Origin: Actinomycetota bacterium
GTDB lineage: Bacteria > Actinomycetota > Acidimicrobiia > IMCC26256 > PALSA-610
NCBI GenBank assembly: GCA_005773635.1
Contig: SXHN01000122.1
Span: 1-64,000, forward strand
Direction: 5' to 3'
DNA: 64,000 nt
The stretch's first letter is position 1; each line of letters opens with the position of its first letter. This document shows, one piece after another, positions 21,920-34,608 of the stretch. Made by a program: the position numbers and the translations under genes. The notes beneath the pieces are model-generated. The model did not search any database, was not told the origin of the DNA, and saw nothing but the letters and a program-made list of their open reading frames with translations.

Positions 21920-22216
21920 ATGAAGCGACAAAACGTGTTGGTGCTCTACCTCGGAGATTCGGCACTCGATTCTGCGGTCATCGCCTGGTCGTATTGGGAT
22001 GGCACCGGCACGGTCTGGCGGATGGCTGGCGACGAGAACGAAGCGCCGTACCCCACCGGGATCGCGGCGCTGCGAGATGGTTGGCGACTCTTTCAGACCT
22101 CGCAGCTCATCCCCCACTACCCCGGTACAGAAACGCAGACGTCATATCTCAAATACGAGTTCTTGTTCGAGCAAATCGTCGATGTTGATGTTGCTGCAGA
22201 AGGAGTAGCGCCATGA
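21920..22216 (+). CDS. Conserved-looking 98-residue protein of unknown function
   Basis: 98 residues from the ATG at 21920, preceded by CAGGA, and diverging from ccr across 63 bp. Its stop overlaps the start of the PhyH-family gene (ATGA), so the two are translationally coupled, which is the best evidence that it is real. The sequence is rich in Trp and Tyr (AVIAWSYWDGTG, LKYEFLFEQIVD), has no signal or membrane helix and matches no family I recognise. It may be a partner or stability factor for the downstream dioxygenase. Confidence 0.7.
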   Translation: MKRQNVLVLYLGDSALDSAVIAWSYWDGTGTVWRMAGDENEAPYPTGIAALRDGWRLFQTSQLIPHYPGTETQTSYLKYEFLFEQIVDVDVAAEGVAP

Positions 22217-23121
22217 GCGAATACCGCAAGCTCAGCACCAAGGAAGTCGCGCGATTCGCGGCACGCGGCCACTTGATGTTTGAAGGTCTCATTGGCGACG
22301 ACCTCAACCAAAAATACATCGATGAGGCAGGAGCCGGTGGCGTCGCGGAGGTTGCTGCTGGCACCCCGCTCGCGGACGCGTACGCGCCCGGCACATCGTT
22401 GCACGCTCTCGTCAACGAACCCGCGGTACGAGGCATCCTCGACAGTCTGGTCGGGCCCGGTCCCCTTGTTGATCACCATTTTGTGCACCTCACCCTCGGC
22501 CGCACCCAAAGAGAGTCGTTCGGAATCGCCAACCCGATGCCTTCGCAACATTGGCACCAAGATTCCACAATCGATACCCGAGCCGCTTTCGACGTACAGA
22601 TCATGTGGTACCCGCATGAAGTGACATTAGAAATGGGTGGTACTCGCTATCTTCCCGGCAGCCACCTTCGCATTGTCAGCGAAGCCGCAATCGGCCGGTA
22701 CCAAAACATTCGAGGTCAACGACACGTTGTGTGCCCCGCCGGTTCGCTGCTCGTACTCCACCATGGGATGTGGCATGGTGGCGGTTTCAATGCGAGCGAC
22801 ACGACTCGTCACATGGTCAAAATTCGGCTCAACCCAACGGTGCCGCAACAGAGACTTTGGGATACCTCCGACATCACGCCAGCCGACCGCGCCCAGCGCT
22901 CGATCTTTTGGCAACTCGCGGCACGCGAAGCCGACGATCTCCACGACATCTTGTGTGAATACCAGCCCTGGTTTGAGGCCGACACCGCCCGGTTGGAATT
23001 CGTGAACCGAGTTCGGTTCTTCCGCTATCTCCTTGGCGATGACACCTTCGATGCCGACTATTGGCTGACCCGCATAGAAAACCAGCCCGCTCGACGAGTG
23101 GAAAGCACGACCGGCAGCTAG
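22213..23121 (+). CDS. Phytanoyl-CoA dioxygenase (PhyH) family Fe(II)/2-oxoglutarate oxygenase
   Basis: 302 residues. The double-stranded beta-helix iron site is visible: HWHQD supplies the His-x-Asp pair (about 117-119) and LLVLHHGMWHGGGFNAS supplies the distal histidine. RHMVKIRLNPT carries the arginine that should hold 2-oxoglutarate. GGTRYLPGSHLR is the common strand between them. Members hydroxylate fatty acyl-CoAs, ectoine-type compounds or natural products, so the substrate is open. It is coupled to the small upstream gene by an ATGA overlap. The last codons are followed within 7 bp by the first 46-bp intergenic repeat. Confidence 0.87.
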   Translation: MSEYRKLSTKEVARFAARGHLMFEGLIGDDLNQKYIDEAGAGGVAEVAAGTPLADAYAPGTSLHALVNEPAVRGILDSLVGPGPLVDHHFVHLTLGRTQRESFGIANPMPSQHWHQDSTIDTRAAFDVQIMWYPHEVTLEMGGTRYLPGSHLRIVSEAAIGRYQNIRGQRHVVCPAGSLLVLHHGMWHGGGFNASDTTRHMVKIRLNPTVPQQRLWDTSDITPADRAQRSIFWQLAAREADDLHDILCEYQPWFEADTARLEFVNRVRFFRYLLGDDTFDADYWLTRIENQPARRVESTTGS

Positions 23122-23127
23122 CGGCAC

Positions 23128-23173
23128 GCGGTCCCACAGAGGCCGCGCAACCCGCCAGATCGTGGGACCACCC
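23128..23173 (+). repeat. 46-bp dispersed intergenic element, copy A
   Basis: One of four copies in the window (A, B here; C, D at 34345 and 34418). It begins GCGGTCCCAC and ends GTGGGACCACCC, so 8-bp arms GGTCCCAC and GTGGGACC form a perfect inverted repeat around a GC-rich middle. Copy B differs from A by a single base. It lies just after the PhyH stop. Confidence 0.85.
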
Positions 23174-23200
23174 GGGATGAGACTTGACACGACGGCGGCC

Positions 23201-23246
23201 GCGGTCCCACAGAGGCCGCGCAAGCCGCCAGATCGTGGGACCACCC
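23201..23246 (+). repeat. 46-bp dispersed intergenic element, copy B
   Basis: Starts exactly 73 bp after copy A, separated by a 27-bp spacer that is not itself repeated at this locus. The inverted arms are intact. It sits about 90 bp upstream of the thiolase start, so it lies in the thiolase 5' region or promoter zone. Confidence 0.85.
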
Positions 23247-23337
23247 TCGCCTGCGGGACGGTTGCGACTTGGGCGGCGGGCGTCCCGGAGGTTTACACTT
23301 TCGACCTCTTACAACTCGGACATCTCGGAGGTCCATC

Positions 23338-24522
23338 ATGCCTGGTTCGGTGATCGTTAGTTCCGCCCGCACTCCTATCGGCAAACTGTCGGGCGCATTG
23401 GCTCAATTCAGTGGCGCCGACCTCGGAGGCATCGCCATCAAGGCTGCGCTCGAGCGCGCGGGCCTCACCGGCGACCAGATTGATCACGTGATCATGGGCC
23501 AGGTGCTCCAAGCGGGCGCTGGGCAAATCACTGCACGTCAAGCAGCGGTGGCCGCAGGCATCCCGATGAACGTACCTTCGATCACCATCAACAAGGTGTG
23601 CTTGTCGGGCTTGAACTCGATCTACATGGCCGACCAGATGATTGCGGCAGGCGAAGCCGACATCGTGGTCGCCGGTGGCATGGAATCCATGACCAACGCT
23701 CCGTACATCCTCCCGAAAGCGCGCGCGGGCTACCGCATGGGCAACGGCGAACTTATCGACACTCTGATTCACGACGGCTTGTGGTGCGCGTTCGATGCAG
23801 TACACATGGGCACCGGCACCGAAAAGTACTGCGGAGAATTCGGAAACATCACGCGTGAAATGCAAGACGAGATGTCCGCACAAAGCCACGAACGCGCCGC
23901 GAATGCTCAAAAAGAGGGCCGCTTCACTGAAGAAATCACCACGGTAGCGATTCCGCAACGCAAGGGTGACCCGGTACTCGTCGACACCGATGAAGGTGTG
24001 CGCCCCGGCACCACTGCCGAATCACTCGGCGCCTTGCGGCCAGCGTTCGACAAAAACGGCACGATCACCGCCGGCAACGCGTCGCAAATTTCCGATGGTG
24101 GCGCAGCCGTTGTTGTGATGAGCCGCACCAAAGCAGAACAACTCGGCATCGCTCCGCTCGCAGAGCTTGTTGGCTTCGGAATGGTCGCAGGCCCCGATGC
24201 TTCGCTGCTGACACAACCGAGCCGCTCCATCAACAAGGCACTCGATCGAGCCGGTCTCAAGGTCTCCGATGTCGACCTGTTTGAGCTCAACGAGGCGTTC
24301 GCGGCCGTTGGTCTCGCCTCGATGCGCGACCTTTCGATTAGCGACGACATCGTGAACGTCAACGGAGGGGCTATTGCACTCGGTCACCCCGTTGGTATGT
24401 CGGGCACACGTGTCGTGCTCACGCTGATCAACGAACTCCGGCGCCGCGGTGGCGGTCTCGGCGCAGCCGCGCTCTGCGGCGGCGGCGGGCAGGGCGACGC
24501 CGCATTGGTACGCGCGCTCTAG
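23338..24522 (+). CDS. phaA/atoB: Acetyl-CoA acetyltransferase (thiolase)
   Basis: 394 residues from the ATG at 23338, with GGAGG about 6 nt upstream. Condenses two acetyl-CoA to acetoacetyl-CoA, or the reverse. The acyl-accepting cysteine is Cys88 in NKVCLSGLNSI; VVAGGMESMTNAPY, NEAFAAVGLAS, NGGAIALGHPVGMSG (His) and LCGGGGQGDA (second Cys) complete the active site. It supplies the entry step of the ethylmalonyl-CoA pathway or of storage-polymer synthesis, feeding the 3-hydroxybutyryl-CoA dehydrogenase at 9976. A strong hairpin follows the stop. Confidence 0.94.
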   Translation: MPGSVIVSSARTPIGKLSGALAQFSGADLGGIAIKAALERAGLTGDQIDHVIMGQVLQAGAGQITARQAAVAAGIPMNVPSITINKVCLSGLNSIYMADQMIAAGEADIVVAGGMESMTNAPYILPKARAGYRMGNGELIDTLIHDGLWCAFDAVHMGTGTEKYCGEFGNITREMQDEMSAQSHERAANAQKEGRFTEEITTVAIPQRKGDPVLVDTDEGVRPGTTAESLGALRPAFDKNGTITAGNASQISDGGAAVVVMSRTKAEQLGIAPLAELVGFGMVAGPDASLLTQPSRSINKALDRAGLKVSDVDLFELNEAFAAVGLASMRDLSISDDIVNVNGGAIALGHPVGMSGTRVVLTLINELRRRGGGLGAAALCGGGGQGDAALVRAL

Positions 24523-32361: not shown

Positions 32362-34284
32362 CTAATCGCCGCGCGGGCGTTCTTCAACGACCTGGGCGCC
32401 TAATTCCGCCATCAACAATTGCTCAGTGTCGCGGCCCATCGGAGCATCCGGCGCGTCGACTAACTCGGCGAGGTCTACGAGATCGGGAAGATCATCTTGC
32501 GATGGCTGATATTCGGATTCACCATCACTGCCCTCAGAAGCCGCGGCTCGCCCAAAATCGTGTTCTCTAAGATTGAATCGCACCCGCATCCCGAGGTGCT
32601 GCGCTAGCACCTCGCGAATTTCATCTGCGTTGCTCTTGAAACGCGCCCGAACTGCGGTGAATTGATCGTGCGGAACCCCAAACAAAACGACGTCGTCGTC
32701 GAGTGATATCGGCTGCGCTTGCTGTACAACAGACCGAGTCATCGCGTTCAAACTCCCGACGGCAGCGCCCCACGCCACGACAACGTCAGCGAGCACCACT
32801 GGTGTGGTCCGAGTTGACGTTGCTGGGGCGACTGCTGCGACGGGCGCTTTCTTCATTGCCGCGCTCGGCGGTGGGGCCGGAGACTCACGGCGTAACGAGC
32901 CAATGGTGGGTCGAGACACAGAACTTGCCGGTGACTCTGCACTCGGTTTGGCTGGCTCCGATGACGCACCGGCGCTTGGGCCAGGCTTCGGTGGCATTGC
33001 GCCGCGCGGCGAGGCCCCCGAACGCGATGAAGGCATCGACGATGAGTTCGGCGCGCTCACTACGCCCGCACCGGAACTCAGCTGCTGTACTTTCGATTCC
33101 AAGTGCGCAACGCGTTCCATCAACCCATCAAGATCGCCATGCGCTTCGCGACGGGCCAAACGCACGACTGCAACCTCAAGCACAAGCCGAGGATCGGGCG
33201 CGCCCTGGCCGCGCATATCAGCGATTGCTTCGCCCACTGTTTCAATCATGCGAGCACAACGCGGCAATCCCGCCGCCTGTGCGAACGTGGAGAGCTGCGC
33301 CGTTTCTTCAGCCGGGCCGTCATGGGCAATTTTGCCGCCGCCCGCGGTAAACACGAACGCGTCGCGAGTGGTGGCAAGTAGTTCTTCCGCCAAAGTTCGC
33401 GGATCGATGCCGCTTCGCAATGCATCAGCGACGCTGAGCAATGCGCCAGCTACGTCTTCGTCGGCAATTGCCTGCAACACTGCGATGCGGCGTTCAAATC
33501 CGGTGCCTCCAAAGGCCGCGAGCACACTCGCGCTGTCGAGGTGATGATTACTGCCCTCAATGCCTACCGCGATCGCGATGTCGAGCTTCGACATGGCGTC
33601 GCGAGCCGAACCCGCGCCCTGACGTACCACAGCCTCAAGCGCGTCCGCATCTACCTCGACACCTTCGCGGCCCGCGATGTCTGTGAGATGTTCGCGCAGC
33701 TCGTCGTTAGTGAGTAGCGAGAATTCCAAGTGCTGCGTTCGCGACCGGATGGTCGGCAGCACCTTGTTGGGGTCGGTGGTCGCAAGAATAAATACAACAT
33801 GATCAGGTGGTTCTTCGAGCGTTTTCAACAGCGCATTCGATGCTGCCGTCGTGAGCATGTGCACTTCGTCGACCACATACACCTTGCGTTTGCCGTTTGC
33901 GCTCAGGCCACCGTGCACCGCGCCCACAAGATCGCGGGCGTGTTCAACTTTGTTGTTGGACGCGGCGTCGAGTTCGATGAGATCAGCGAAGTTGCCAGCT
34001 GCGACGCCCTGACAGTTCACACAGGCACCGCACGGCTCACCCTCGTTGGTGAGCTCAAGGCAGTTCAGTGCCTTGGCGAGAATACGCGCCGTCGTGGTCT
34101 TGCCGGTGCCGCGTGGCCCCGAAAATAGGTATGCGTGGCCGATGCGATCTTCCAGGAGTGCGTTGCGAAGTGCAGCAATGATGTGGTGCTGGCCTTTCAA
34201 TTCACCAAAAAACTGTGGGCGATATTTGCGATAGAGAGACTGCGACTTCAGTTTTTCACGCGGCTCCGGCTCCATTGAAGGCAT
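32362..34284 (-). CDS. dnaX: DNA polymerase III gamma/tau subunit
   Basis: 640 residues from the ATG at 34284 (an ATG three codons later is an alternative). The longer frame to 34557 is rejected because it is coded by the 46-bp repeats and the SRP RNA gene. Clamp-loader ATPase: SLYRKYRPQFFGELKGQ, Walker A SGPRGTGKTTTA (56-64), zinc site CGACVNC, Walker B region VYVVDEVHML, sensor IRSRTQHLEF. A long Pro/Ser/Ala-rich linker (about 405-510) separates it from a C-terminal tau-like region. Whether a short gamma form is made here is unknown. Confidence 0.95.
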   Translation of the reverse strand: MPSMEPEPREKLKSQSLYRKYRPQFFGELKGQHHIIAALRNALLEDRIGHAYLFSGPRGTGKTTTARILAKALNCLELTNEGEPCGACVNCQGVAAGNFADLIELDAASNNKVEHARDLVGAVHGGLSANGKRKVYVVDEVHMLTTAASNALLKTLEEPPDHVVFILATTDPNKVLPTIRSRTQHLEFSLLTNDELREHLTDIAGREGVEVDADALEAVVRQGAGSARDAMSKLDIAIAVGIEGSNHHLDSASVLAAFGGTGFERRIAVLQAIADEDVAGALLSVADALRSGIDPRTLAEELLATTRDAFVFTAGGGKIAHDGPAEETAQLSTFAQAAGLPRCARMIETVGEAIADMRGQGAPDPRLVLEVAVVRLARREAHGDLDGLMERVAHLESKVQQLSSGAGVVSAPNSSSMPSSRSGASPRGAMPPKPGPSAGASSEPAKPSAESPASSVSRPTIGSLRRESPAPPPSAAMKKAPVAAVAPATSTRTTPVVLADVVVAWGAAVGSLNAMTRSVVQQAQPISLDDDVVLFGVPHDQFTAVRARFKSNADEIREVLAQHLGMRVRFNLREHDFGRAAASEGSDGESEYQPSQDDLPDLVDLAELVDAPDAPMGRDTEQLLMAELGAQVVEERPRGD

Positions 34285-34344
34285 CGTAACCGAGCGATAG
34301 GACAACGCACTTGGCCCCAAGCCCCGGCGCACCCATCCACCCCC

Positions 34345-34390
34345 GCGGTCCCACACACACCGCGCAAACCACCAGATCGTGTGACCACCC
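34345..34390 (+). repeat. 46-bp dispersed intergenic element, copy C
   Basis: Third copy of the element seen at 23128. The core is identical to copy D. Relative to A/B a few bases differ, and the right arm becomes GTGTGACC, giving one mismatch in the inverted repeat. It lies between the SRP RNA gene and dnaX. Confidence 0.85.
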
Positions 34391-34417
34391 AAGCCCCGGC
34401 GCACCCATCCACCCCCC

Positions 34418-34463
34418 GCGGTCCCACACACACCGCGCAAACCACCAGATCGTGTGACCACCC
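34418..34463 (+). repeat. 46-bp dispersed intergenic element, copy D
   Basis: Starts exactly 73 bp after copy C. Here the 27-bp spacer is also repeated before copy C and, partly, after copy D, so the whole 73-bp unit has been tandemly duplicated at this locus. Confidence 0.85.
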
Positions 34464-34489
34464 CGAGCTCCGGCGCACCCAGCCACCGC

Positions 34490-34608
34490 TCAGGAGGCTC
34501 GCCCAGGCAACCCGGCGGCACCCGAGAGTTTCCGCTGAGAGCTGCTTGCTTCCGCATCTGACTCGGTTCACGGACTCCCGTCGCGCCGGACCCGGGCGAA
34601 CCACCTCA
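34490..34608 (-). ncRNA. ffs: Signal recognition particle RNA (4.5S, small bacterial type)
   Basis: Read on the minus strand, it holds the conserved SRP core GTCAGATGCGGAAGCAAGCA, with the GGAA tetraloop and the asymmetric-loop AGCAG. Compared with the E. coli core the stem is U-G-C/G-C-A in place of U-C-C/G-G-A, a compensated pair. A distal 12-bp pairing of GGTTCGCCCGGG (about 34592-34603) with CCTGGGCGAGCC closes the hairpin. Location directly upstream of dnaX is classic for ffs. Ends are approximate to within about 5 bases. Confidence 0.85.

Follow-up and report, generated by a model that had tools for sequence, protein, structure and literature searches.

The window analysed here, a 64,000-nucleotide stretch of an Actinomycetota genome (G000), contains two copies of a short near-palindrome between a PhyH-domain gene and a thiolase (acetyl-CoA acetyltransferase) gene, and two further copies next to the small SRP RNA gene (Table 1). 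Copies A and B of the thiolase leader are 98% identical over 47 nt (23127-23173 and 23200-23246), differ in one base and lie 73 bp apart. Both have perfect 8-bp arms, GGTCCCAC and GTGGGACC, all of which agrees with the first-pass annotation of this DNA. Shuffled windows yielded no match at all, and by this control chance alone would not produce an arm pair of this kind in the 64-kb window. The elements had also been described as filling the gap between the two genes, of which (23122-23337) they make up about half. The spacer, described as non-repeated, is diverged at the thiolase, but arrays elsewhere in the genome have a loosely conserved 33-bp spacer.

Table 1. Genes, elements and the nuclease-containing form of the element in G000 (window positions unless a contig is named).
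Feature	Position	Strand	Remark
PhyH-domain gene, upstream	22213..23121	+	stop codon 8 bp ahead of copy A
Copy A, 40-bp core GGTCCCAC-N24-GTGGGACC	23130..23169	+	repeat identity spans 23127-23173
Spacer between cores A and B, 33 bp	23170..23202	+	diverged here; loosely conserved elsewhere in genome
Copy B, 40-bp core GGTCCCAC-N24-GTGGGACC	23203..23242	+	repeat identity spans 23200-23246
Thiolase (acetyl-CoA acetyltransferase) gene, downstream	23338..24522	+	ATG 95 bp past copy B
Element copy, second site, right arm GTGTGACC	34347..34386	+	
Tandem element copy, second site, 73 bp further	34420..34459	+	38 bp from SRP RNA 3' end
Small SRP RNA gene	34498..34597	-	3' end towards 34-kb elements
Array - nuclease gene - array form	C51:19530-20939		

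The copies at 34 kb are likewise 73 bp apart and carry a single altered base, confined to the right arm. The earlier remarks that the changes at this site fall in one arm only, and that the orientation relative to the downstream gene differs between the two loci, were correct. The longest dnaX reading frame (window 34251-34557) passes through these elements. Since homology to the sister species begins well downstream, we consider the elements probably non-coding and the start of this longest frame probably wrong. The search of the window for structured RNAs returned the SRP RNA and tRNAs only, and identity of the element with a known structured RNA was therefore rejected. In the sister species, G001 of the same genus, the dnaX-SRP gap contains another 40-bp palindrome, TGTCCCAC-N24-GTGGGACA, located at the corresponding position beyond the SRP RNA.

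The elements of both sites are members of a genome-wide family of near-palindromes with about 65 copies. This number follows from a search with the arm-only pattern (two mismatches at most), which matched 76 places in G000 versus 11 for the reversed control; shuffles and reversed-pattern controls led us to reject a chance origin of the repeats. The core has a fixed length of 40 bp from GGTC to GACC, with GGTC.CAC and GTG.GACC almost invariant and an internal sequence that splits into sub-types. At the ends of arrays, good conservation beyond the core is limited to two motifs, a left-hand CGC and a right-hand ACC. Copies are solitary or form arrays of two to four with a period of usually 73 bp, sometimes 71-81 bp. 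A CRISPR array was rejected, as there are only one to six repeats, no array exceeds six, and spacers are related between arrays. The longest array seen, six tandem palindromes with a 51-bp period, is located in the sister species (L254:3286-3580).

Most G000 copies lie, in either orientation, 8-60 bp past a neighbouring gene's stop codon, and simple gene calls place about 11 loci between convergent genes, 16 between co-directional and none between clearly divergent ones. Elements of the sister species show a like preference for gene 3' ends. REP elements have been reported from the same kind of location, at gene 3' ends in unidirectional or convergent gaps (PMC3733652). That the element regulates the thiolase in particular, one of the options raised earlier and in keeping with the position in the thiolase leader, is highly improbable: copies of it, in both orientations, lie at the ends of about 30 unrelated genes, and the thiolase leader of the sister species has none. 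Element arrays also bracket other genes, namely a single gene at L026:4069-5247 and a block at L044:4312-8199 that encodes enzymes and a MarR-type regulator. The equivalent place of this block in the sister species (L260) holds different genes, suggesting that arrays may indicate where genes are gained and lost. At L041:2436-4074, G000 has two genes and one element where the sister species has about 54 bp (L107:16687-16741).

The exact element family was absent from the 99 relatives searched, and the arm search did not find it in 13 genomes of the family; neither did it appear in the genome-contig or viral-contig collections searched. Gene order around the window sites is kept in the sister species, and its PhyH-thiolase gap lacks such an element. 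This gap is not conserved outside the elements either; such conservation had been named in advance as the sign that the similarity is part of a larger ordinary sequence. The gap is filled there by one copy of another dispersed repeat (CGGAGCAAGNCGAGNCGACNGACCANTTCA core, 61-bp period), for which about 42 places were counted in G001 (for example L121:5503-5670, L117:1-217 and L076:2202-2264) and four in G000 (for example C68:2627 and, outside the window, C122:82660); no partner gene was found for it. The sister species possesses its own element family, GGTCCCT-N26-AGGGACC, with the same 40-bp architecture and a different internal sequence (52 places versus 1 for the control, two mismatches at most). 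Elements of both species occupy several common gaps (G001/G000 loci L256/L032, L260/L044, L262/L035 and L273/L034). In the comparison of G000 with the sister species, no insertion was seen base by base and no target-site duplication could be shown; the two are too diverged between genes to provide an exact empty site.

In each of the three genomes with GGTCCC-type elements (G000, G001 and G006), one locus (L030, L262 and L265, respectively) was conspicuous for element arrays on either side of a single gene. The three encoded proteins are homologous, were the closest set in a family-wide search and form one supported clade. We predict from their sequences that they are nucleases in which an AbiEi-like N-terminal domain is fused to a Vsr/DUF559-type nuclease domain. 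Their N-terminal part matches AbiEi models, and the C-terminal part matches REase_MTES_1575 below the cut-off in two of the three; the PF18741 matches in this clade are under the curated cut-off. The C51 protein of G000 itself gave no Pfam match. Among its relatives, AbiEi_4, AbiEi_1 and, in one homologue, DUF559 were matched above the cut-off. A PDB profile search yielded weak matches to abortive-infection AbiEi-type chains, the mobile-intron protein 3r3p and the endonuclease-like 3hrl. Both the AbiEi-like N-terminus and the Vsr/DUF559-type C-terminus with conserved acidic and histidine residues were thus recognizable, and D246, E257, H264, D274 and R277 are invariant across 11 diverse family members. 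At L262 of the sister species, three palindromes precede the nuclease gene and two follow it, and the syntenic L035 of G000 consists of two palindromes only, which is what autonomous versus non-autonomous versions would look like. G000 encodes two more AbiEi/nuclease homologues (C59:8729-9595 and C45:20581-21366; L285 and L289), each near its own repeats; for the C59 type, there is in addition a far-off dispersed pair (L027:5530 and 5594). No homologues of the nuclease were found in phages or viral contigs and, for most queries, none in plasmids. Spread by phage or plasmid was rejected, with the weak 'plasmid' matches sitting on large Tsukamurella, Arthrobacter and other records.

The association between nuclease and palindrome extends beyond this clade. 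Nearly all of 20 homologues have palindromes or repeats of about 40-46 bp near one or both ends, and these are type-specific. Although some homologues fell below the set threshold, flanks with a common repeat were detected in 13 of 19 homologues versus 4 of 299 ordinary genes (gene-anchored control), and in 14 of 19 versus 4 of 300 random intervals. The best-scoring control gene proved to be a nuclease homologue itself and the second-best a phage integrase, where flanking repeats are expected. In Tsukamurella and Arthrobacter, which belong to two other actinobacterial orders, the palindrome of one flank is wholly or partly repeated on the other. The Tsukamurella homologue shows a 33-bp match between its flanks, and additional copies of its palindrome lie between genes in two other records. 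Across genera, the termini of the palindrome track the protein clade and not the host genome: GGTCCC in G000, G001 and G006, TGTCCCAC in G010 and G001, and GGTACTGC in G002 and G001. With termini assigned by hand, the correlation is a modest one (r 0.35, permutation p 0.011).

Copies 8-60 bp beyond stop codons, often between convergent genes, might also be expected if the palindromes were 3'-end signals (bidirectional terminators or mRNA-stabilising hairpins) that selection has kept at gene ends. The thiolase copies form stable folds as RNA (z about -3), in line with the terminator pair suggested in the first-pass annotation, and the sister species likewise has its palindrome past the SRP RNA. 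In the TGTCCCAC family, which is dispersed in G001, inner pairs co-vary, with 12 double-change cells that preserve pairing versus 4.5 in shuffles (0 of 500 shuffles), a pattern for which quasi-palindrome correction in replication could be an alternative source. However, one strand of the 34-kb copies folds no better than shuffles, a hairpin is present in some copies but the U-run of an intrinsic terminator is absent, and the single common variable arm position of the G000 family is uncompensated (20 paired versus 24 expected). The difference between the two families suggests that pairing may matter in one and recognition of the letters in the other. Selection for 3'-end signals would also leave the near-identical copies, the fixed 40-bp length and the nuclease genes between arrays unexplained. 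We therefore regard it as unlikely, and a side effect of the elements on transcript ends as possible.

Among known systems, REP/REPIN elements with their RAYT (TnpA-REP) show the closest resemblance. They are intergenic imperfect palindromes of 20-40 bp near gene 3' ends, occur singly and in clusters in co-directional or convergent gaps, and have the gene of their cognate enzyme bordered by the repeat (PMC3733652, PMC3116915, PMC8266576). The G000 elements share the palindrome type, with many intergenic copies, as well as the sites at gene ends, the singles and clusters, and the repeat-flanked enzyme gene. In contrast to REP elements, which have GTAG or CGTC as a tetranucleotide on one side (PMC3733652), they end in GGTC/GACC with no conserved GTAG/CGTC tag outside, and the flanked gene encodes an AbiEi/Vsr-type nuclease and not a RAYT. 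The RAYT model (Y1_Tnp, PF01797) had no match in G000, which is about 95% complete, and matched in 5 of 14 control genomes; RAYT as the partner of these elements was accordingly rejected. The elements further resemble MITEs in being short, non-coding and dispersed with inverted ends, but no parent DDE transposase was identified in the transposase search, which covered Y1_Tnp, and the candidate parent is the array-gene-array form, whose enzyme is not a known transposase. A MITE or REP moved by an ordinary transposase encoded at another locus, with the nuclease as a coincidental neighbour, would account for the terminal inverted arms, the dispersal and the species-limited spread. Given the missing Y1_Tnp/RAYT gene and the flank association in many homologues with differing palindromes from three actinobacterial orders, we rate this as a little less probable still than selection for 3'-end signals. 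The N-terminal half of the nuclease resembles AbiEi antitoxins of AbiE systems, matching their models and, weakly, solved abortive-infection chains, but is fused here to a nuclease domain in a single gene between palindromes. The C-terminal half weakly matches the Vsr-fold mobile-intron endonuclease (PDB 3r3p) and a DUF559-like protein (PDB 3hrl), yet dispersed palindromes were seen here instead of an intron or intein. Our literature search, weak on subscription journals and without bioRxiv preprints, found no description of a pairing of palindromes with such a nuclease.

We posit that the elements of the window are REP-like, probably non-autonomous repeats that depend on the AbiEi/Vsr-like nuclease, and assign this reading a probability of roughly 60%. 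Of the three options in the first-pass annotation, the non-autonomous mobile repeat fits best, with about 65 dispersed copies, none in 99 relatives and a link to a nuclease; the movement itself we infer. The reading builds on the family and its architecture, the 3'-end location, the absence from relatives, the nuclease flanking in several lineages, the termini by clade and the conserved nuclease-type residues, from which binding, cutting and copying by the nuclease are extrapolated. The N-terminal AbiEi-like winged-helix domain would recognise the palindrome ends, and the C-terminal Vsr/DUF559-fold domain would nick or cut the palindrome or its hairpin. Repair or replication might then copy the palindrome into new intergenic sites, where mainly insertions past gene ends would be tolerated, and slippage or recombination may afterwards build the tandem arrays of 51-75 bp period. 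The palindrome array - nuclease gene - palindrome array on C51 would represent the autonomous form.

Against this reading, the nuclease might use its flanking palindromes solely as operators, or might be a passenger. AbiEi antitoxins regulate by binding DNA at inverted repeats, and the palindromes adjoin the nuclease gene on both sides, as they would if they served the AbiEi-like protein as operators or decoys, for autoregulation or control of the toxin-antitoxin type, and were not mobile DNA. Such sites should lie in front of promoters, but the copies follow the 3' ends of about 30 genes that are unrelated, and tandem arrays of up to six copies would be unexpected. This explanation thus appears improbable to us.

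Few repeats in bacteria are as common as REP elements, whose spread is usually credited to RAYT. G000 harbours a REP-like family without a RAYT in the genome; the family is linked to nucleases whose sole annotation is 'AbiEi antitoxin' or 'DUF559'. More tentatively, and at somewhat less than even odds, Actinomycetota may possess a second, RAYT-independent kind of REP system, in which solitary AbiEi/Vsr-fold nucleases each copy their own palindrome of about 40-46 bp round the chromosome. If the nuclease moves or maintains the repeats, orphan 'AbiEi antitoxin' and 'DUF559' proteins would gain a function, and the matched enzyme-palindrome pairs would allow direct tests of recognition.
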